Source: Tardiphaga robiniae (GTDB taxonomy: Bacteria; Pseudomonadota; Alphaproteobacteria; Rhizobiales; Xanthobacteraceae). Taken from it: a DNA stretch of 55,297 bases. Positions 22,149 to 34,695 of this stretch are shown piece by piece; within the stretch, counting starts at the first letter, position 1, and each line of letters starts with the position of its first letter. The notes under the pieces were generated by a model, which was not told the DNA's origin, did no database searches, and worked only from the letters and a program-made list of their open reading frames with translations. A program made the translations under genes and the position numbers. The stretch spans positions 1-55,297 of the forward strand of contig NZ_JABMCJ010000060.1 of assembly GCF_013359755.1 (NCBI RefSeq), read 5' to 3'.

Positions 22149-22275
22149 GATTGCCCCACTGTCTGGTGATGAAAATGCGCGGGATAACTGCGCCGCCGCA
22201 TTTCCGTTGCAATGCAAACAGGCTGTTTCGGAATATATCTTGGCCTGCGAGGGTCGCTAGCCCGGAGTTTTGCTT

Positions 22276-23244
22276 ATGACCGACGTCTCCCATCACAAAC
22301 GCATCGCATTGCTGGGCGCGCCAGTCGAAGTCGGGGCCTCGCAGCGCGGGACCTTGATGGGGCCGGCGGCCATGCGGACGGCAGGCCTGGGGCCGCTGCT
22401 GGAAGAGCTTGGCTTCGAGGTGGAAGACCACGGTGACCTCATGCCACCGTCTGTGCCTCTGTCGACCGATGCGCCGCCGGAGAATGCCAAGCATTACCGT
22501 GTGATCCAGAGCTGGATCCAGGCGCTGAGTGCGCGTGCCTACACGCTTGCCAAATCGGGCGCGCTTCCGATCTTCGTGGGCGGTGATCACAGCCTGTCCA
22601 TGGGATCGGTCAATGGCGTGGCAAGGCACTGGCACGAGCAGGGGCGCGAATTGTTCGTGCTGTGGCTCGATGCGCATGCCGATTACAATACGCCGCACAC
22701 GACCATCACCGGCAATATGCATGGCATGTCCGCGGCCTTTCTGTGCGGCGAGTCCGGTCTCGACGGCCTGCTCGGTGCGGAGCCTCGGGCCTCGATCAAG
22801 CCGGACAATCTCGATCTGTTCGGCATTCGCTCCATCGACAAGCTCGAGAAAGAGCTGGTGCATGCACGCAAGGTGGCCATTGCAGACATGCGGCAGATCG
22901 ACGAGTTCGGTGTTGGCGTCCTGATCCGCCGCGTCATCGAGCGGGTCAAGGCGCGCAACGGCGTGTTGCATGTGTCCTTCGATGTGGACTTCCTCGATCC
23001 CGCGGCAGCGCCCGGCGTTGGCACCATGGTGCCCGGCGGCGCCACCTATCGCGAGGCGCATCTGATCATGGAGCTGCTGCATGATTCCGGGCTGATGTGC
23101 TCGCTGGATGTCGTCGAGCTCAATCCGTTTCTCGACGAGCGCGGGCGTACCGCACGGGTGATGGTCGAGCTGGTCGGCAGCCTGTTCGGGCAGCAGATCA
23201 CCGATCGGCCGACACCGAGCAACGCAATTATACCGCCCGGCTAG
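22276..23244 (+). CDS. rocF: Arginase
   Basis: Hydrolyses L-arginine to ornithine and urea in the cytoplasm. The binuclear manganese ligands are all there: H105 in GGDHSLS, D132/H134/D136 in WLDAHADYN, and the FDVDFLDP pair. The NMHGM and VVELNP motifs mark the arginase branch rather than agmatinase. ATG 22276 has CGGAG 8 bases before it; 322 residues is a normal length. Divergent from glgX; ornithine cyclodeaminase, its frequent partner in alphaproteobacteria, is missing. Urea would need urease elsewhere. Confidence 0.93.
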   Translation: MTDVSHHKRIALLGAPVEVGASQRGTLMGPAAMRTAGLGPLLEELGFEVEDHGDLMPPSVPLSTDAPPENAKHYRVIQSWIQALSARAYTLAKSGALPIFVGGDHSLSMGSVNGVARHWHEQGRELFVLWLDAHADYNTPHTTITGNMHGMSAAFLCGESGLDGLLGAEPRASIKPDNLDLFGIRSIDKLEKELVHARKVAIADMRQIDEFGVGVLIRRVIERVKARNGVLHVSFDVDFLDPAAAPGVGTMVPGGATYREAHLIMELLHDSGLMCSLDVVELNPFLDERGRTARVMVELVGSLFGQQITDRPTPSNAIIPPG

Positions 23245-25457: not shown

Positions 25458-27056
25458 TCAGTCCAGACCGATCGTGGTCAGGTCCTGGAACCAGTGCTGG
25501 GCCTGCACGAACTTCTTCACCTTCGGCGACAGCGCATGCGGGTTGGTGTCGTGGACGACCCAGACCAGCACCGCATCGTCGACGATCTGCGCATGGGCTT
25601 CGGCCAGCAACTCGTCCTGCTTCTTCGGATCGAAGGTGTTCTTGGCTTCGTCGATCAGCGCATCGACCTTCGGGTTCTTGTAGCCGCCCCAGTTCACGCC
25701 GACCGGTGCGATCTGGCCGGAGTGGAAGAAGCGCACGATAGCGTACAAGGGATCGGAGGTGACGTAAGCGATGTTGTTGGACGTGATGCCCTTCATGCTG
25801 TCGTCGGCCGCACCCTTGCGCCATGCGGTGTAGAGCACTTCGAGTTCGACGACCTTGAACTCGACCTCGACGCCGATTTCCTTGAAGCTCTGCTGCAGGA
25901 ATTCGTTGATCGGCAGCGACAGCATCTGGCCGGTGCCGCCATTGGCGATGATGAAGGTCGCCTTCAGCGGCTTGTCCGGGCCGTAGCCCGCTTCCTTCAC
26001 GAGCTTCTTGGCTTCGGCAAGATCATACTTGATCTTGAAGGTCGGCTTGCCGAACCACGGGCTCGACGGATCGACCTGGCCGATGGCGGGCTTGGCGAGG
26101 CCGTTCATCAGCGCGACGACTGCATCGCGATCGATGGCGAGGTTGAGTGCCTTGCGCAGGCGGACGTCGGTCCAGGGCGAACCCGGCAGCACGCTGAGGT
26201 GATAATTCCAGACATGCGGCGTGACGTTATCGACGATCTTCATGCCGGCGCCCTTGAGCTGCGGCACAGCGTCGGGAGCAGGGGTCTCGATCAGATCGAC
26301 CTGACCGGCGAGCAGCGCGTTGGTGCGGGTGAGGGCTTCCGGCATCGGCACAAGTACGAGCTTGTCGGCTTTCGGAATGCGCTTCTTGTCCCAGTAATCC
26401 GGATTCTTGCTGAGCTCGGCGAGCTCGCGCGGAACGAGCTTGGTGAGCTTGAACGGGCCGGTGCCCGAGGGCTGCGATGCGAACTTGTCCCAGTCCTTGC
26501 CGACCTTCTCATATTGAGCCGGGCTGGAGACCAGGAACCAGAGCATCTGATAGGGGAAGAAGCTGTCGACGCTCTTGGTGGTGATCTCGACGGTGCCGTC
26601 ATCGATCTTGGCGTAGCTGGCGACCGAGGGCAGGCGGGTCTTTACCTGCGCGCTCTGGCGCTTGTCGAATTGCGGCGCCTTCTCGTTCAGCACCTTGTCG
26701 AGATTCCAGATCACCGCATCGGCGTTGAAGTCGCTGCCATCATGAAACTTGACGCCCTTGCGCAAGGTGAAGCGCCACTTGGTCTTGTCGGTGTCGTCGA
26801 CCTTCCATTCGGTGGCGAGGCCGGGAATGAGTTTGCCGGGACGATCGGCGACATCCATTTCCCAGGCGACGAGCGGATCGTAGATCGTGTAGCCGGTGAA
26901 CTGGTAGCCTCCGGCGCCGCGATCAGGCTGGCCTGTGGTCAGCGGCACGTCCGCCATCGAGATGCCATAGCGCACCACCGTTTCGGCTTGCGCCGGCGCG
27001 GCTGCACCTATGGCGGCGGCGATGGCCGCAACAAATAACGAGCTTCGAACGCGCAT
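25458..27056 (-). CDS. Periplasmic solute-binding protein, peptide/nickel family 5
   Basis: A 532-residue binding protein (SBP_bac_5, DppA/OppA-like) with signal peptide MRVRSSLFVAAIAAAIGAAA and cleavage near PAQA. Family marks: AFHDG-like FHDGSDFNADAVIWN and GTGPFKL. It is clearly paralogous to the divergent protein at 27291: both begin the mature part with a VLRIGM/VVRYGIS-MADVP segment and share GQPD and FTG. GGAG lies 8 bases before the ATG. It has no permease of its own and probably serves the transporter encoded on the other strand. A sigma-54 promoter match precedes it, so expression should follow nitrogen status. Confidence 0.9.
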   Translation of the reverse strand: MRVRSSLFVAAIAAAIGAAAPAQAETVVRYGISMADVPLTTGQPDRGAGGYQFTGYTIYDPLVAWEMDVADRPGKLIPGLATEWKVDDTDKTKWRFTLRKGVKFHDGSDFNADAVIWNLDKVLNEKAPQFDKRQSAQVKTRLPSVASYAKIDDGTVEITTKSVDSFFPYQMLWFLVSSPAQYEKVGKDWDKFASQPSGTGPFKLTKLVPRELAELSKNPDYWDKKRIPKADKLVLVPMPEALTRTNALLAGQVDLIETPAPDAVPQLKGAGMKIVDNVTPHVWNYHLSVLPGSPWTDVRLRKALNLAIDRDAVVALMNGLAKPAIGQVDPSSPWFGKPTFKIKYDLAEAKKLVKEAGYGPDKPLKATFIIANGGTGQMLSLPINEFLQQSFKEIGVEVEFKVVELEVLYTAWRKGAADDSMKGITSNNIAYVTSDPLYAIVRFFHSGQIAPVGVNWGGYKNPKVDALIDEAKNTFDPKKQDELLAEAHAQIVDDAVLVWVVHDTNPHALSPKVKKFVQAQHWFQDLTTIGLD

Positions 27057-27290: not shown

Positions 27291-28958
27291 ATGCGTATCG
27301 AAAAGCCGACAAAGAGCCGTCTCGCGGCAGCAATCACGTTGCTGACGCTCGCCACGGCCCTGACCTTGCCACAGGTGGCGCGCGCCGAGACGGTGCTGCG
27401 CATCGGCATGACCGCTGCCGATATTCCGCGCACGCTTGGCCAGCCCGATCAGGGCTTCGAAGGCAATCGTTTCACCGGCAATACGATGTATGACGGCCTG
27501 ACCGGCTGGGATCTGTCGTCCGCGACCAAAGCGAGTGTTGTTATCCCGGCGCTCGCCACTGAGTGGGCAGTGGACGACGCCGACAAGAAGAAGTGGACCT
27601 TCAAACTGCGTCCCGGCGTCACTTTCCACGATGGTTCGGCCTTCAATGCGGATGCTGTGGTCTGGAATGTGGACAAGGTGCTCAAACAAGATGCAGTCCA
27701 GTTCGACGCCAGCCAGGTCGGTGTGACCGCCTCGCGCATGCCGACCCTGGTGTCGGCCAAGAAGATCGACGACATGACCGTCGAGTTGACCACGAAGGAG
27801 CCGGACTCCTTCCTGCCGATCAATCTCACCAACCTCTTTATGGCGAGCCCGACGAAGTGGCAGGCGCTGTTCGACAAGGCCGAAGGCGCCGATGCCAAGG
27901 CCAAGTCGCAGGCCGCATGGGCGGCCTTCGCGCGCGAAGCCTCCGGCACCGGCCCGTGGAAGATGTCGAAGTTCACACCGCGCGAGCGTCTCGAACTGGT
28001 GAAGAACGACGCCTACTGGAACAAGGACCGCGTTCCGAAGACCGACAAGATGGTGCTGCTGCCGATGCCGGAAGCCAACGCCCGCACTGCGGCGTTGCTG
28101 TCCGGTCAGGTCGACTGGGTCGAAGCGCCTGCGCCCGACGCCGTCAAGGAAATCACCGCGCGTGGCTTCAAGATCGAGAAGAACGAGCAGCCGCATGTCT
28201 GGCCGTGGCAGTTCTCCCGTGCCGAAGGCTCGCCGTGGAACGACATCCGCGTCCGCAAGGCCGCGAATCTCTGCATCGATCGCGAAGGCCTGAAGGATGG
28301 TCTGCTCGCCGGCCTGATGGTGCCGGCAAGCGGCACTTTCGAGCCGGGCCACCCCTGGCGCGGCAAGCCGACCTTCGAGATCAAGTATGACCTGAAGGCT
28401 GCACAAGCGCTGATGAAGGAAGCCGGTTACGGCCCTGCCAAGAAGCTCGAAGTGAAGACCCAGACCTCGGCGTCCGGCTCCGGCCAGATGCTGCCGCTGC
28501 CGATGAACGAATATCTGCAGCAGGCGCTGGCGGAGTGCTACTTCGACGTCAAGCTCGATGTGATCGAATGGAACACGCTGTTCACCAACTGGCGCCGCGG
28601 CGTCAAGGATCCCTCGGCCAACGGCTCCAACGCCACCAACGTCACCTATGCGGCGATGGATCCGTTCTTCGCTCTGGTTCGCTTCCTGCAGTCGTCGATG
28701 GCACCGCCGGTCTCGAACAATTGGGGCTTCATCAACAATCCGAAGTTCGATGAACTGGTGACCAAGGCACGCACCACCTTCGACGCAACGGCACGTGACG
28801 CGGCGCTGGCCGAGCTTCATGCTGCTTCGGTCGATGACGCAGCCTTCCTCTATGTGGCCCATGACGTCGGTCCACGTGCGCTGAGCCCGAAGATCAAGGG
28901 CTTTGTGCAGCCGAAGAGCTGGTTCGTCGACTTCTCGCCGGTGTCGATCACGCCGTAA
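27291..28958 (+). CDS. Periplasmic solute-binding protein of the amidase-linked ABC transporter
   Basis: A 555-residue family 5 binding protein with a signal peptide (KSRLAAAITLLTLATALTLP, cleavage near ARA). FHDGSAFNADAVVWN, SGTGPWKM and the pattern WRRGVKDP near the C-terminus mark the peptide/dipeptide class. GAGGG lies about 10 bases before the ATG. It heads the operon of two permeases, ATPase, AtzG-like protein, amidase and ATPase. A palindromic repeat separates it from the permeases and could set it apart in expression, as binding proteins are usually needed in excess. Ligand unknown; an amide or small peptide-like compound is inferred from the amidase. Confidence 0.9.
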   Translation: MRIEKPTKSRLAAAITLLTLATALTLPQVARAETVLRIGMTAADIPRTLGQPDQGFEGNRFTGNTMYDGLTGWDLSSATKASVVIPALATEWAVDDADKKKWTFKLRPGVTFHDGSAFNADAVVWNVDKVLKQDAVQFDASQVGVTASRMPTLVSAKKIDDMTVELTTKEPDSFLPINLTNLFMASPTKWQALFDKAEGADAKAKSQAAWAAFAREASGTGPWKMSKFTPRERLELVKNDAYWNKDRVPKTDKMVLLPMPEANARTAALLSGQVDWVEAPAPDAVKEITARGFKIEKNEQPHVWPWQFSRAEGSPWNDIRVRKAANLCIDREGLKDGLLAGLMVPASGTFEPGHPWRGKPTFEIKYDLKAAQALMKEAGYGPAKKLEVKTQTSASGSGQMLPLPMNEYLQQALAECYFDVKLDVIEWNTLFTNWRRGVKDPSANGSNATNVTYAAMDPFFALVRFLQSSMAPPVSNNWGFINNPKFDELVTKARTTFDATARDAALAELHAASVDDAAFLYVAHDVGPRALSPKIKGFVQPKSWFVDFSPVSITP

Positions 28959-28977
28959 GGCGAAGCGCTTCTTTCTT

Positions 28978-29130
28978 CCCTCTCCCCCGCGCGAAGCGAA
29001 GCTTCGCTAGGTGGGAGAGGGTGGCTGAGCGAAGCGAAGACGGGAGAGGGGGAGCAGCAGAGCTCCGTCTCACCCCTCTCCCGTCTCGAACGCGCTTCGC
29101 GCGCCACCCTCTCCCACAAGGGGAGAGAGG
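28978..29130. repeat. Dispersed palindromic repeat (CCTCTCCCCGC family), copy 2
   Basis: CCCTCTCCC ... GGGAGAGGG and further inverted segments including GAAGCGAAGCTTCGC; the right end is GGGGAGAGAGG. It resembles the copy at 8022-8204. It lies inside an operon, between the binding-protein stop (28958) and the permease start (29178), where a stable RNA fold could shield the upstream message or stop part of the transcripts. Confidence 0.75.
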
Positions 29131-29177
29131 AAGAAGAGTTCGGCTCGGCTCTCTGAATTTAGAACTGAAGGTGCCCC

Positions 29178-30131
29178 TTGTTCGTCTACATCGCGCGACG
29201 CGTCGTCTATGTGATTCCTATCGTCCTCAGCGTGGCGCTGGTGTGTTTCCTGCTGGTGCACATTACGCCCGGGGATCCTCTCGTTGCCATTCTTCCCGCT
29301 GACGCATCGCAGGAGCTGGCGCAGCAATTGCGCGTCGCCTACGGCTTCGATCGTCCGCTGCCGGTGCAGTTCGGCCTTTGGCTGTGGCGCGCGCTACACG
29401 GCGATCTCGGCAGCTCCATCGCCACCGGACGTCCTGTTCTGGCAGAGGTGATGAAAGCCGTCGGCAATACCGTGACGCTGGCCATCGCCGCGGCCGCCAT
29501 CGGTTTCACGCTCGGTTTGTTTTTCGGGCTGATCGCCGGCTATTTCCGCGATACCTGGGTCGACAAGGTTGCGACCTCGATCGCCATCGCCGGCGTCTCC
29601 GTGCCGCATTACTGGCTCGGTATGGTGCTGGTCATCATCTTCTCGGTGCAGCTCAACTGGCTGCCTGCGGTTGGCGCAGGTCCGGGCGGTTCGGGTTCAT
29701 GGGCCTGGGACTGGGAGCACATCAAATATCTCGTGCTGCCGGCGATTACGACCTCGGTCATTCCGATGGGCATCGTGACCCGCACGGTGCGCGCGCTGAC
29801 CGGCGATATCCTGTCGCAGGATTTCGTCGAAGCGTTGCGCGCCAAGGGCCTGCAGGAAACCAAGGTATTTCGTCACGTCATCAAGAATGCTGCGCCGACG
29901 GCGCTGGCCGTGATGGGCCTGCAGCTTGGCTACATGCTCGGCGGCTCGATCCTGATCGAAACTGTGTTCTCCTGGCCTGGTTCGGGGCTTCTTTTGAACT
30001 CCGCGATCTTCCAGCGTGACCTGCCGCTGCTGCAGGGCACGATCCTCGTGCTGGCGCTGTTCTTCGTGTTCCTCAATCTTCTGGTCGATATCGCGCAGGC
30101 GTCGATCGATCCGCGCATCAAGCGGAGCTGA
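29178..30131 (+). CDS. ABC transporter permease, DppB-like
   Basis: A 317-residue inner-membrane protein with six hydrophobic segments, beginning FVYIARRVVYVIPIVLSVAL. The EAA-type cytoplasmic loop (VEALRAKGLQETKVFRHVIKNA) binds the ATPase subunits, and the C-terminal ASIDPRIK ending is typical of DppB/OppB. The start is TTG 29178: GAAGG lies 6 bases upstream and no in-frame ATG or GTG fits. Pairs with the DppC-like protein 20 bases downstream. Confidence 0.9.
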   Translation: MFVYIARRVVYVIPIVLSVALVCFLLVHITPGDPLVAILPADASQELAQQLRVAYGFDRPLPVQFGLWLWRALHGDLGSSIATGRPVLAEVMKAVGNTVTLAIAAAAIGFTLGLFFGLIAGYFRDTWVDKVATSIAIAGVSVPHYWLGMVLVIIFSVQLNWLPAVGAGPGGSGSWAWDWEHIKYLVLPAITTSVIPMGIVTRTVRALTGDILSQDFVEALRAKGLQETKVFRHVIKNAAPTALAVMGLQLGYMLGGSILIETVFSWPGSGLLLNSAIFQRDLPLLQGTILVLALFFVFLNLLVDIAQASIDPRIKRS

Positions 30132-30150
30132 CCATGCTGGATATCCTCTC

Positions 30151-31038
30151 ATGACCGCGATGACCGACACCGCATTGCAGGCGGCGCCTGCCACCAAGGC
30201 CCGCGGCTATTGGGCCACCGTGGGCCGCCGCATCGTGCGCGACAAGGTCAGCATGGCCTGCGCGTTCATTCTGCTGCTGATCTTCCTGGCAGCGATCTTT
30301 GCGCCCTATCTGCATCTCGCAGATCCCTATCAGGGCTCCATGATCCGCCGTTTGCGTTTCATCGGCACACCCAACTATCCGCTCGGCACCGACGAACTCG
30401 GTCGCGACATGCTGGCCAGGTTGATCTATGGCGGGCGACTGTCGCTGCTGATCGGCATCCTGCCGGTGATCCTTGCCTTCTTCATCGGGACGGGGCTTGG
30501 CGTTGTGGCCGGCTATGTCGGAGGGAAGCTCAATACCGCGATCATGCGCACCGTCGACGTGTTCTACGCGTTCCCCTCGGTTCTGCTGGCCATTGCGATT
30601 TCCGGTGCGCTGGGCGCCGGCATCGTCAATTCGATCGTGTCGCTGACCATCGTGTTCGTGCCGCAGATCACGCGCGTCGCCGAGAGCGTCACCACTGGCG
30701 TGCGCAACATGGACTATGTGGAAGCGGCACGTGCCTCCGGCGCGAACGCCTTCACCATCATGCGGGTGCACATGCTCGGCAACGTGCTGGGCTCCATCTT
30801 CGTCTACGCGACCGGCCTGATCTCGGTGTCGATGATCCTCGCCGCCGGTCTGTCGTTCCTCGGCCTCGGCACCAAGCCGCCGGAGCCGGAATGGGGTCTG
30901 ATGCTGAACACGCTGCGCACCGCGATCTACGTCAACCCATGGGTAGCAGCACTCCCCGGCGCGATGATCTTCGCCGTGTCGATCTGTTTCAACCTGCTGA
31001 GCGACGGCATGCGCAGTGCCATGGACATCCGGAACTGA
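30151..31038 (+). CDS. ABC transporter permease, DppC-like
   Basis: 295 residues with an N-terminal cytoplasmic tail, then about six hydrophobic segments. DppC/OppC features are the N-terminal PLGTDELGRDMLARLIYGGR and the EAA loop VEAARASGANAFTIMRVHML, followed by LSFLGLGTKPPEPEWG. I start at ATG 30151 just past the upstream stop; frames open further upstream only because they overlap the DppB-like gene. The MTAM codons give a second possible start at 30160. Forms the channel with the DppB-like protein. Confidence 0.9.
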   Translation: MTAMTDTALQAAPATKARGYWATVGRRIVRDKVSMACAFILLLIFLAAIFAPYLHLADPYQGSMIRRLRFIGTPNYPLGTDELGRDMLARLIYGGRLSLLIGILPVILAFFIGTGLGVVAGYVGGKLNTAIMRTVDVFYAFPSVLLAIAISGALGAGIVNSIVSLTIVFVPQITRVAESVTTGVRNMDYVEAARASGANAFTIMRVHMLGNVLGSIFVYATGLISVSMILAAGLSFLGLGTKPPEPEWGLMLNTLRTAIYVNPWVAALPGAMIFAVSICFNLLSDGMRSAMDIRN

Positions 31039-31042
31039 TGGC

Positions 31043-32104
31043 ATGAGTGATATTGTAGAAGAAATCGACAAGCTGGAACCGCTCGAAGATATCGGCGGTG
31101 TTGCACAGCCGCTGTTACAGGTGGTCAGTCTGACCAAGCACTTCCCCGTGCGCGGCGGATTGTTCGCGCCGAGCAAGACCGTGCGCGCGGTGGACGATGT
31201 GTCCTTCGCCATCGCCAAGGGCGAAACCGTTGGCATCGTCGGCGAGTCCGGCTGCGGCAAGTCGACAACGGCGCGGTTGCTGATGCATCTGATGCCGCGC
31301 AATTCCGGCGATATCATCTATGACGGCCGCACTGTCGGGCGCGAACTTTCGCTGCGCGAGCTGCGCCGCGGCATGCAGATGGTGTTTCAGGACAGCTATG
31401 CCTCGCTCAATCCGCGCCTGACGATCGAGGAATCGATCGCGTTCGGACCAAAGGTCCACGGCATGGCCGATAAAGCCGCGCGGCTGCTGGCGCGCGAGCT
31501 GCTCGGCAAGGTCGGTCTGCGGCCCGAGACGTTCGCCAACCGCTATCCGCATGAGGTCTCCGGGGGGCAGCGTCAGCGTGTCAACATCGCGCGTGCGCTT
31601 GCGCTGTCGCCGCGTCTCGTCATTCTCGATGAAGCGGTCTCGGCGCTCGATAAATCGGTCGAGGCGCAGGTGCTCAACCTGCTGGTCGATCTCAAGCGCG
31701 AATTCGGCTTGACCTATCTGTTCATCAGCCACGATCTCAACGTGGTGCGCTACATCTCCGACCGCGTGCTGGTGATGTATCTCGGCGAAGTCGTCGAACT
31801 CGGCCCGGTGGACGAAGTCTGGGACGGGCCGGCGCATCCCTATACGCGCGCGCTGCTTGCGGCGATGCCGTCGTCCGATCCCGACAACCGTACCGAAACG
31901 CCGCCGATCACCGGCGATCCGCCGAATCCGATCGATCCACCGTCCGGCTGTCGCTTCCACACACGCTGCCCCTTTGCCGAAGCGATGTGCGGCGAGGCCA
32001 CGCCGAAGCTGACTGAAATCACTGTGACCGGCCATCAGGCCGCCTGTTACATGGCGATCCCGGGTTCGGGCCACAGCAAAGCACCTGCTGCAGGAGCGCA
32101 CTGA
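31043..32104 (+). CDS. Oligopeptide-type ABC transporter ATP-binding protein (first)
   Basis: 353 residues of the DppF/OppF class: Walker A GESGCGKST, signature VSGGQRQRVNIARAL, Walker B LVILDEAVSALD and the C-terminal oligopeptide-transporter domain with CRFHTRCPFAEAMC, which in this family can hold an Fe-S cluster. Starts at ATG 31043, four bases after the DppC-like stop. The gene ends two bases before the AtzG-like start. It energises import together with the second ATPase downstream of the amidase. Confidence 0.92.
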   Translation: MSDIVEEIDKLEPLEDIGGVAQPLLQVVSLTKHFPVRGGLFAPSKTVRAVDDVSFAIAKGETVGIVGESGCGKSTTARLLMHLMPRNSGDIIYDGRTVGRELSLRELRRGMQMVFQDSYASLNPRLTIEESIAFGPKVHGMADKAARLLARELLGKVGLRPETFANRYPHEVSGGQRQRVNIARALALSPRLVILDEAVSALDKSVEAQVLNLLVDLKREFGLTYLFISHDLNVVRYISDRVLVMYLGEVVELGPVDEVWDGPAHPYTRALLAAMPSSDPDNRTETPPITGDPPNPIDPPSGCRFHTRCPFAEAMCGEATPKLTEITVTGHQAACYMAIPGSGHSKAPAAGAH

Positions 32105-32105
32105 C

Positions 32106-32303
32106 ATGACCAAACCGACTGCCAGGCAGATCAAAGCGCTGACCGAGGTCAGCGGCCTCCCGGCCTCCGACGAGGTTGCGGAGCGCATCGCCAATTCGAT
32201 CGGGCCGGCCTTCGAAGGATTCGCGGCCGTCGCCGGCACGCTGCCATTTGACCTCGAGCCTGCGACCTTTCTCGCCGTTCAGAATACGAAGGCTGCCAAA
32301 TGA
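32106..32303 (+). CDS. AtzG-like / DUF4089 small subunit of an amidase
   Basis: A 65-residue helical protein matching the AtzG/HpxX pattern (LTEVSGLPASDEVAERIAN ... GTLPFDLEPATF). In Pseudomonas sp. ADP, AtzG is a small partner of the AtzE amidase, and both resemble GatC and GatA of the tRNA amidotransferase. Here it begins one base after the ATPase stop and overlaps the amidase start by four bases (ATGA), so a two-subunit enzyme is very likely. Family assignment is by eye from its size, the PxxLPFDLEPA-like C-terminus and its neighbour. Confidence 0.72.
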   Translation: MTKPTARQIKALTEVSGLPASDEVAERIANSIGPAFEGFAAVAGTLPFDLEPATFLAVQNTKAAK

Positions 32304-33715
32304 GTGTCACCGAACCCGCATTGCTGTCGCTGACGGAAGTTGTTGACGCTATCGCCACGAAGAAGGTTTCGTCGCGCGAAGCCACGCAGTCTTGCCTCGA
32401 TCGCGCCGTGAAATCGCAGCCGAGCCTCAATGCCTACATGTCGATCGAGGCCGATGCCGCGCTGGCGGCAGCCGATGCGGCAGATGCCGCGCTCGCCAGG
32501 GGGCAAAGCCGCGGCGTACTGCACGGCGTGCCGCTGGCGCACAAGGACATGTATTACGACGAAGGGCACGTCGTGACATGCGGCTCGCATATTCGCCGCG
32601 ACTGGGTTGCGACCACGACGGCAACGTCGCTGCAGCGCTTGAAGGATGCCGGCACGGTGCGGCTCGGTTCGCTGCAGATGGTCGAATTCGCCTATGGTCC
32701 GCTCGGTCACAACGTGCATTACGGCGCCGTGCATAATCCGTGGCATGTCGATCACGTCACCGGCGGTTCATCGTCGGGTTCGGGCTCCGCTGTGGCGGCG
32801 CGTTTGACTTTTGCAGCGCTGGGCTCCGACACCGGCGGGTCGATCCGTCTGCCAGCGCATTTCTGCGGCGTCTCCGGCTTGAAGACGACCGTCGGTCTGG
32901 TCAGCCGCGCCGGCGCAATGCCGCTGTCGCAATCGCTCGACACGGTCGGTCCGCTGGCCCGCACCGTCGAGGATTGCGCGCTGCTGACCGGCCTGATGGC
33001 TGGCGCCGATCCGCTCGATCCAACCACAAGCATGCGCCCTGTGCCGGACTACATGGCGGCGACGCGTGCGTCCGCCAAAGGCATGACCGTCGGCATTCCC
33101 AAGGCGTTCTATGTCGACGATCTCGACGCCGATACCGCTGCCATTCTGCAGAACACCATCGCGACGCTGAAGGATGAAGGCGTCAAGATCGTCGAAGTCG
33201 ATCTGCCCAATCAGGGCCAACTCACGGCGGCCTGCCAGTTCGTGCTCGCGACGGAAGCTGCGGCGATGCATAAGCGCTGGATGATCGAGCGTCCGCAGGA
33301 CTATGGCGCGCAGGTGCTGATGCGGCTGCAGAACGGTCTCGCGATCACCGGCGTCTCCTATATCGAGGCGCTACGCTGGCGTGGTCCTGCACTTGCAGCC
33401 TATCTGGCTGCAGTCACCGGTACTGACGCCGTGCTCGCACCGGTCTCGCCCGGGGCGGCTCCGACCATTGCCGAGACCGATGTCGGCAACAGCTCTGGCG
33501 CCGAAGCGATGATCCAGCGCCTGACGCGCTTCACGCGCCCGATCAACTATCTCGGTCTGCCCGGTCTCTCGATCCCGGCGGGTTTCACCAAGTCGAAACT
33601 TCCGGTGGGCATGCAGCTGATCGGTCGCCCGTTCGATGAAGCGACGTTGCTGACCATCGGTGCGGCCTTCCAGCGCGCCACGGACTTCCACAAACAGTGC
33701 CCGGAGTTGGCATGA
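32300..33715 (+). CDS. Amidase-signature hydrolase, AtzE-like
   Basis: A 471-residue amidase of the GatA/AtzE superfamily. The Ser-cisSer-Lys triad is K82 (PLAHKDMYY), S157 or S158 (GGSSSGSGSA) and S181 (GSDTGGSIRLPA). No signal peptide, so cytoplasmic, where the transporter would deliver its substrate. Overlaps the AtzG-like gene upstream and the second ATPase downstream, each by four bases. An amidase sitting between the two ATPase genes of one transporter suggests coupled uptake and hydrolysis, releasing ammonia or a carboxylate. Which amide is used is unknown; carboxybiuret-like or ureide-type molecules are the closest AtzE precedents. Confidence 0.88.
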   Translation: MSVTEPALLSLTEVVDAIATKKVSSREATQSCLDRAVKSQPSLNAYMSIEADAALAAADAADAALARGQSRGVLHGVPLAHKDMYYDEGHVVTCGSHIRRDWVATTTATSLQRLKDAGTVRLGSLQMVEFAYGPLGHNVHYGAVHNPWHVDHVTGGSSSGSGSAVAARLTFAALGSDTGGSIRLPAHFCGVSGLKTTVGLVSRAGAMPLSQSLDTVGPLARTVEDCALLTGLMAGADPLDPTTSMRPVPDYMAATRASAKGMTVGIPKAFYVDDLDADTAAILQNTIATLKDEGVKIVEVDLPNQGQLTAACQFVLATEAAAMHKRWMIERPQDYGAQVLMRLQNGLAITGVSYIEALRWRGPALAAYLAAVTGTDAVLAPVSPGAAPTIAETDVGNSSGAEAMIQRLTRFTRPINYLGLPGLSIPAGFTKSKLPVGMQLIGRPFDEATLLTIGAAFQRATDFHKQCPELA

Positions 33716-34695
33716 GTAATCTCGTCGAGGTTCGCAATCTCAACGTCCGGTTCGGCGGCGAACGCACCGTCTATGCGGTGAACGATCTCAACCTCACGCT
33801 CGGCGAAGGCGAGGTGCTCGGGCTGCTCGGCGAGTCCGGCTCAGGCAAGAGCGTCACCTTGCGCGCGCTGATGCGGCTGCTGCCGAAGAAGCGCACGCAG
33901 ATCACTGGCACGGTCAATGTGCTCGGCAAGGACGTGCTGGCGCTCGATGACGACGAGCTTTCGGCGTTTCGTGGCCAGACGGTGTCGATGATCTTCCAGG
34001 AGCCGGCGCTGGCGCTGGACCCCGTCTATACGATCGGCCAGCAGATCGCCGAAAGCGTGATGCGGCACGAGGGCAAGAGCCAGGCCGAGGGCGTGAAGCG
34101 CGCGCTCGAAATGCTCGAAGTCGTGCGTATCCCCTCCGCCAAGCGTCGCCTCGATGCCTATCCGCATGAGATGTCCGGTGGCATGCGGCAGCGCGCAATG
34201 ATCGCGCTGGCGCTGGCCTGCAAGCCCAAGATTCTGCTCGCGGACGAGCCGACCACTGCGCTCGATGCCACCGTGCAGATCCAGATCCTGCTGCTGCTGC
34301 GCGAGCTGCAGCGCGAATTCGGCATGTCGATCATCTTCGTCACGCACGATATCGGCGTGGCCATCGAAATCTGCGACCGCGTCGCGGTGATGTATGCAGG
34401 CCAGATCGTCGAACAGGGCACGCTGAGCCAGATCGTACGCTCGGCCGTGCATCCCTATCCGCAGGGGCTGCTGGCCTCCACCGTGCACGGCGCTAAGCGC
34501 GGGGCACGGCTTGAGACCATTCCCGGCACGCCGCCGTCGCTCGACAAGCCGCCGGTGAATTGCTCCTTCGCGCCGCGCTGCAAATTCGCCCAGCCGCGTT
34601 GCGTCGAGGCGCCGCCGCCGAATGTCGAACTCGCCGACAATCGTGTGGTGCGGTGTATTCTGGCGGAGCAGGCGGCAGCGGCAGTGCCGGCCTGA
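33712..34695 (+). CDS. Oligopeptide-type ABC transporter ATP-binding protein (second)
   Basis: 327 residues of the DppD/OppD class: Walker A GESGSGKSV, signature MSGGMRQRAMIALAL, Walker B ILLADEPTTALD and the C-terminal domain with CSFAPRCKFAQPRC. Start ATG 33712 overlaps the amidase stop by four bases. Completes the transporter with the ATPase at 31043. Last gene of the operon, meeting the CinA-type gene tail to tail seven bases on. Usually DppD precedes DppF; here the order is reversed and the hydrolase genes lie between. Confidence 0.92.
   Translation: MSNLVEVRNLNVRFGGERTVYAVNDLNLTLGEGEVLGLLGESGSGKSVTLRALMRLLPKKRTQITGTVNVLGKDVLALDDDELSAFRGQTVSMIFQEPALALDPVYTIGQQIAESVMRHEGKSQAEGVKRALEMLEVVRIPSAKRRLDAYPHEMSGGMRQRAMIALALACKPKILLADEPTTALDATVQIQILLLLRELQREFGMSIIFVTHDIGVAIEICDRVAVMYAGQIVEQGTLSQIVRSAVHPYPQGLLASTVHGAKRGARLETIPGTPPSLDKPPVNCSFAPRCKFAQPRCVEAPPPNVELADNRVVRCILAEQAAAAVPA

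Follow-up and report, generated by a model that had tools for sequence, protein, structure and literature searches.

Within the window (the whole 55,297-nucleotide stretch of DNA analysed, corresponding to contig C65 in a genome of 6.3 Mb) lies a run of seven genes, all on the forward strand, that encode a substrate-binding protein (SBP), two permeases, an ATPase (ATPase 1), a small protein, an amidase and a further ATPase (ATPase 2). We read it, with a probability of roughly 0.6, as an operon that takes up an amide or ureide with a carboxylate group and cleaves it with a two-subunit amidase. In our model, one or two periplasmic SBPs would catch a small compound with a carboxylate as well as an amide or a ureido group, an ABC importer of the peptide/nickel type would move it into the cytoplasm, and there a two-subunit Ser-cisSer-Lys amidase would split a C-N bond to give ammonia or an amine—the 65-residue protein serving as a putative non-catalytic, stabilising subunit, analogous to AtzG for AtzE. 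The model is built on what we observe of gene content and order, conservation, the catalytic triad, the clade of the amidase, the remote profile relationship that links the small-protein family with AtzG and GatC, and the genes that recur nearby. Use of the amide compound as a source of nitrogen is a plausible prediction.

Gene content, junctions and conservation

The genes and adjoining features are as follows.

25458..27056, minus strand: second, divergent substrate-binding protein, 532 aa (PF00496, 265.3 bits)
27291..28958, plus strand: substrate-binding protein, SBP_bac_5 family, 555 aa (PF00496, 242.6 bits)
28966..29140, no strand: interspersed repeat between the first SBP gene and the first permease gene (59 own-genome matches)
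29178..30131, plus strand: DppB/NikB-type permease of 317 residues, listed with a TTG start codon (PF00528, 139.8 bits, and PF19300)
30151..31038, plus strand: DppC-type permease of 295 residues, counted from the ATG at 30151 (PF00528, 78.3 bits, and OppC_N; scanned from 30148)
31043..32104, plus strand: DppF-type ATPase (ATPase 1) of 353 residues, counted from the ATG at 31043 (ABC_tran, 114.3 bits; oligo_HPY, 74.6 bits)
32106..32303, plus strand: 65-residue small protein outside PF13318, probably a subunit of GatC/AtzG type (by comparison of a broad profile of its family with AtzG)
32300..33715, plus strand: amidase-signature hydrolase, 471 aa, triad K82-S158-S181 (PF01425, 357.6 bits; site counts; tree)
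33712..34695, plus strand: ATPase 2, DppD type, 327 aa (ABC_tran, 103.8 bits; oligo_HPY, 54.6 bits)

The initial annotation had described a seven-gene run in this order and direction, and both the coordinates and the Pfam matches agree with it. All listed Pfam matches of the SBP, permeases, ATPases and amidase lie above the Pfam cut-offs, and they include the parts of an importer: SBP_bac_5, two BPD_transp_1 permeases and two ATPases that combine ABC_tran with oligo_HPY; in an NCBIfam scan the first SBP (27291..28958) reached no cut-off. ATGA overlaps had also been described from the small gene through to ATPase 2, and we see them at 32300-32303 (small gene/amidase gene) and 33712-33715 (amidase gene/ATPase 2 gene). 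ATPase 1 and the small gene do not overlap, the TGA at 32102-32104 being separated by one base from the ATG at 32106. Between the first SBP gene and the first permease gene there is a gap of 219 bases containing the repeat, the 59 matches of which include the copy itself as well as hits to the same sites on the opposite strand. Scans for promoters and terminators were uninformative, with 2 promoter-like sites (1.5 expected) and 11 terminator-like sites (5.5 expected). An arginase-family gene is found at 22270-23244, some kilobases upstream of the operon.

Homologues of the small protein occur in 55 of the 198 genomes of the source's family (its own included), spread over 16 of 47 genera. In other genomes of the family we fetched 52 of 54 neighbourhoods, 43 of which hold the complete seven-gene order; the arrangement noted at the outset, a peptide/nickel-type importer with the small protein and amidase between its ATPase genes, is thus a conserved layout, and we regard the run as confirmed to be real, conserved and beyond chance. 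At the family loci the small and amidase genes overlap by 4 bases in 44 of the 50 measurable pairs, two amidase starts having been left unplaced by the script. The small gene itself is under purifying selection, with an NG86 dN of 0.07-0.27 against a dS of 0.70-1.85 across 11 comparisons. The second SBP, encoded upstream of the operon on the opposite strand and beyond the range first described, is 50% identical to the first (260/521) and its gene is divergent in 26/52 family neighbourhoods; it is possibly a further receptor for the same importer.

Nine family loci lack the full order. Two of these (L078, L088) are cut by contig ends, and at L091 the small ORF is present, below the tblastn threshold used. 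In 6/52 loci no intact importer accompanies the small protein and the amidase: at L054, L063 and L093 both are present and no importer is seen inside the fetched stretch, while at L065, L067 and L069, all of one genus, there are importer remnants only (L065 also ends with its contig), with the small gene (65 aa) and the amidase gene (471 aa) still open. The amidase pair can evidently be kept without this importer, since these six loci have none intact. It had been set beforehand, as a test, that in relatives the amidase should always accompany the transporter; the same six family loci, together with loci of Burkholderiales, Methylopila, Ancylobacter and Azospirillum, contradict this. At both L054 and L063 a CHAD-domain gene and a 272-residue ORF (no Pfam match at E<=1e-5) precede the small gene and amidase.

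The amidase and the small protein

By sequence the amidase is a member of the amidase-signature family, and the complete Ser-Ser-Lys triad attributed to it in the initial annotation is indeed there: K82, S158 and S181 are kept in 52/52 family relatives. Its description as AtzE-like did not survive. AtzE models are its best NCBIfam matches, yet it reaches 322.8 of the 425.75 bits required by TIGR02715 and 323.4 of the 461 required by NF006631, missing both cut-offs by >100 bits. A tree of 82 rows, 78 of them distinct (two GatA rows are one gene), gives 100/100 support to each of AtzE (7 rows), GatA (7) and the window clade (52), the last joining GatA weakly (87/59); the window amidase is a third clade beside GatA and AtzE, and not AtzE. 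The nearest solved structure by sequence is GatA (4wj3, 302 bits). Malonamidase E2, a Bradyrhizobium enzyme, was rejected as kin (77 bits, against 302 for GatA).

The small protein had been called AtzG-like; of this claim a remote profile relation stands, whereas the match to PF13318 (DUF4089) is absent. Failure to match DUF4089 in a profile search was the other outcome named beforehand as a refutation, and it too came about. The window protein has no Pfam and no NCBIfam family, PF13318 failing to appear even at E<=10 (HMMER filters drop weak matches), and none of 28 members of its family matches PF13318 at E<=1. When the 198 genomes were searched, a PF13318 match was present in 48 of the 55 that carry the small gene, never at the place of that gene. 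A broad profile of the small family, however, aligns with AtzG from end to end, over 54 columns, with an hhalign score of 23.3 (probability 52%), a score reached by 0/300 column shuffles (best 16.0; reversed profile 11.6), bearing in mind that column shuffling also removes helix periodicity. Against GatC the score is 21.7, again reached by 0/300 column shuffles; in a calibration, AtzG against GatC, for which relatedness has been proposed (PMC6219798), gave 17.8, above 300/300 shuffles. The inputs were 44 rows for the small family (43 different), 24 for AtzG and 23 for GatC (of 30 fetched, kept by length). A narrower first test of the small family against AtzG (A1-A2) had given P 0.0048 and an hhalign probability of 7%, and the 16 far members of the family alone score 15.9 against AtzG; in a profile search of the PDB the only hits were GatC (2df4_C) with an E-value of 0.57 and an unrelated chain with one of 0.14, too weak to be used alone. 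Because the family profile beats 300/300 column shuffles against AtzG, we consider the small protein to be probably a remote GatC/AtzG-type subunit that lies outside PF13318, and infer that it forms a complex with the amidase.

A blind search of 385 genomes of the class with the small-protein profile produced 11 matches in 10 genomes; 9 of them (in 8 genomes) lie outside the source's family and all nine adjoin an amidase. A small ORF lies 5' of the amidase at 36/41 loci whose amidase is at least 43% identical and at 16/34 less similar loci, so that its presence alone is unspecific. A C-terminal end of the form (E/D)P..[FYLV], a pattern picked after viewing the sequences, is found at 33/41 of the former and 0/34 of the latter.

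One close parallel is AtzG-AtzE, the 1-carboxybiuret amidohydrolase of Pseudomonas sp. ADP (PDB 6c62), for which a 2018 study described atzG-atzE-atzH clusters adjoining ABC transporters as well as the failure of AtzE when expressed without AtzG (PMC6219798). There, as in the window, the gene for a small non-catalytic subunit sits directly 5' of an amidase with the same triad, in clusters near ABC transporters; unlike AtzG-AtzE, the window amidase has its own clade and the small protein falls outside PF13318. Pfam and NCBIfam scans find no AtzD- or AtzF-type gene among the seven, and a Pfam scan no AtzH (DUF3225). The source genome holds a genuine AtzG-AtzE pair elsewhere, in a Dpp-type operon (SBP-B-C-D-F-AtzG-AtzE; L143, contig C7, 19869-26863) with true PF13318 and AtzE matches; here too importer, small subunit and amidase share one operon, but the pair is at the end rather than between the ATPase genes, and the remaining proteins share 25-46% identity with their window counterparts. 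The earlier impression that no such pair had a precedent with a peptide-type transporter is overturned by this operon, and by the ABC-transporter-adjoining clusters described in PMC6219798. Both systems also coexist at L072 (genome G123, contig C1, about 4316000-4330300), where a PF13318 match and a 33% identical amidase lie 7.1 kb from a window-type small gene.

Could the window pair then be AtzG-AtzE in the strict sense, with 1-carboxybiuret-like or oxalurate-like ureides as its substrates? The ranking of the AtzE models, the alignment of the small family with AtzG and the presence of the L143 operon in the same genome all speak for this; PF13318, the AtzE cut-offs and the 100/100 separate clade speak against it, as does residue 409 of the amidase, which is T in 50/52 family rows and G in 30/30 AtzE-locus rows. 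We rejected the identification on PF13318, the cut-offs and the tree, and hold the corresponding function to be highly improbable.

Comparison with the GatC-GatA part of GatCAB leads to a similar outcome. A small partner with an amidase, the triad and Arg342 (see below) are held in common; unlike GatC-GatA, the window pair is inside an importer operon, without GatB and in a separate clade. A transamidosome-type GatCA paralogue, passing ammonia to a partner rather than working as a catabolic hydrolase, would agree with 4wj3 being the nearest structure and with the weak joining of the clade to GatA; against it, a Pfam scan finds no GatB among the seven genes and the genome encodes a separate GatC-GatA pair on contig C4. 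We rejected GatCA as an identification on the missing GatB and the separate clade, and a function of this kind seems to us barely conceivable. As for the importer, SBP_bac_5, two permeases and two oligo_HPY-tailed ATPases are features shared with the Dpp/Opp/Nik-type importers of peptides, opines and nickel; its ATPase genes, unlike theirs, are split by the small and amidase genes, and among the matches listed no NCBIfam cut-off is reached.

Separable modules: importer and amidase pair in other genomes

In a search of 376 genomes of the class (<=3 candidates scored per genome), an SBP match at E<=1e-120 was found in 23, the source and one family member included. We examined 23 regions, which comprise all 25 places with at least 50% SBP identity outside the source genome and its family, and found the layout in other orders too, the large proteins being 48-70% identical. 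An amidase 48-51% identical to that of the window follows or separates the ATPase genes in five of the 23 (L139, L284, L285, L287, L289), and at L134 an amidase in the same identity range stands beside the importer, upstream of the SBP gene; four more (L293-L296) have amidases of 36-42% identity, L293, L295 and L296 also having small GatC-like ORFs. The family profile finds the small gene at L134 and L139, gives a weak match at L285 (E 0.013) and does not recognise one at L284, L287 or L289; the small ORFs of L284 and L287 end in LFDTDP or LFDTEP, and L289 has no small ORF resembling the small protein. A lone SBP with only distant amidases (27-30%) is seen at L286, L290, L297 and L298, and no partner was found for the importer relatives at L226, L282 and L291 (L291 reaches its contig end).

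Clade amidases likewise occur without this importer clade, at loci of Burkholderiales, Methylopila, Ancylobacter and Azospirillum, and in other contexts on plasmids of Azospirillum, Agrobacterium and Bosea. One is a paralogue in the source genome (L003/L144, contig C1, about 50850-57914), 44-45% identical to the window amidase, in the order Liv-type importer, small ORF (listed with 77 residues, or 64 if read from an internal ATG), amidase, Amidohydro_2 and flavin reductase. Since there are loci with either alone and loci with both, we regard importer and amidase pair as separable modules, joined in several arrangements.

This modularity bears on an alternative in which the pair is an independent scavenging hydrolase, merely co-transcribed with a peptide importer whose cargo is not its substrate. 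The six family loci with no intact importer (three of them with remnants beside an open small gene and amidase) fit such a hydrolase, as do the clade amidases of Burkholderiales and of the plasmids; the conserved place between the ATPase genes, with its 4-base overlaps, does not, and neither does the pairing with this importer clade seen, variously arranged, beyond the family, and we judge it unlikely. We infer, instead, that the imported compound is hydrolysed in the cytoplasm by the pair, and infer its class as well.

Pointers to the substrate

Arg342 of the amidase aligns with GatA Arg358, which binds the glutamine carboxylate. It is kept in 52/52 family, 9/9 class and 40/43 named-genome rows, and the position is likewise Arg in 30/30 AtzE-locus and 31/31 GatA-locus rows (one GatA gene counted twice), as against 11/37 distant amidases; given its retention in all 52 family rows and in only these 11 distant ones, a carboxylated substrate is favoured. 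Residue 409 lies opposite GatA Asp425, the Asp that binds the amino group; Thr409 carries little weight, because in pairwise alignments an aligned Asp appears in only 15/31 GatA-locus rows.

Gene neighbours of the importer relatives offer a second line of evidence, within the limits of crude gene calls at the distant loci and 30 picked ORFs scanned, by which rarer neighbours are missed. A PF01177 racemase relative (at 31-49% identity; the query was taken from L134) is present in 6/23 SBP regions, and racemase-family genes accompany importer relatives in plasmid records of Dinoroseobacter, R. johnstonii and Thioclava; the family is broad, and none of the five racemases scanned matches an NCBIfam model at E<=1e-8. 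A carbamoylase-family Zn hydrolase, above the TIGR01879 cut-off, occurs with the importer relative of a Klebsiella record, and a carbamoylase-type M20 gene is in line with the importer at L288. In Thioclava a small ORF and amidase (39% identical) are divergent from the importer, and at the importer locus L232 a flavin reductase lies beside another amidase; on a Paracoccus plasmid record none of the racemase, amidase-pair or carbamoylase partners was found at the importer. The richest locus is L134 (5724-11378), where genes for a diaminopropionate ammonia-lyase family protein, a carbamoylase, a CN hydrolase, the small protein, the amidase and a racemase are adjacent, in addition to the importer; carbamoylase and ammonia-lyase family protein are both above their model cut-offs, and L134 is possibly a pathway locus that could reveal the substrate. 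Overall, the genes that recur nearby point to an amino acid in ureido, N-carbamoyl or amide form.

Dicarboxylic monoamides of the maleamate, succinamate or malonamate type have to be weighed here as well, the pair then ending a pathway of heterocycle or amide degradation and the racemase-family neighbours being maleate isomerase-like; maleate isomerases are members of the racemase superfamily. Conservation of Arg342 would suit these compounds, and so would the Amidohydro_2 and flavin reductase genes by the related pair at L144 and the flavin reductase of Thioclava L232. The carbamoylase and CN hydrolase neighbours point, however, to ureido/N-carbamoyl chemistry, and similarity to malonamidase E2 is low (77 bits, against 302 for GatA), such that we find monoamides as the dedicated substrate distinctly improbable. 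For the uptake-and-cleavage operon that we prefer, likely cargo would comprise amino acids with an N-carbamoyl or other amide modification, ureido acids that derive from hydantoins, and dicarboxylic monoamides. More broadly, and at somewhat less than even odds, these loci may represent a third lineage of two-subunit amidases in Alpha- and Betaproteobacteria, its small-subunit family missed by Pfam and NCBIfam, that has repeatedly been wired into importers for the dedicated uptake and hydrolysis of hydantoin-derived or ureido amino-acid compounds.

Judged on titles and the starts of abstracts, none of the papers listed by our literature searches describes this operon. New here are the separate amidase clade and a small-protein family unrecognised by Pfam and NCBIfam; AtzG-AtzE clusters in the vicinity of ABC transporters had already been reported (PMC6219798), and GatA-like amidohydrolases adjoining biuH in ammonia-oxidising archaea were reported in 2025 (PMC12625717). 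At the plasmid loci of Azospirillum, Agrobacterium rubi and Bosea, clade amidases are annotated as 'amidase' and the preceding small gene as 'hypothetical protein'. Should the small protein prove to be an obligate subunit, these amidases would be expected not to work if expressed without it, just as AtzE fails in the absence of AtzG (PMC6219798). The link to an importer, meanwhile, narrows the substrate candidates to compounds recognised by two SBPs. A further clade amidase, at L137 (7651-9607), lies near a 2OG-Fe(II) oxygenase gene and a 3-dehydroquinate synthase-like gene.
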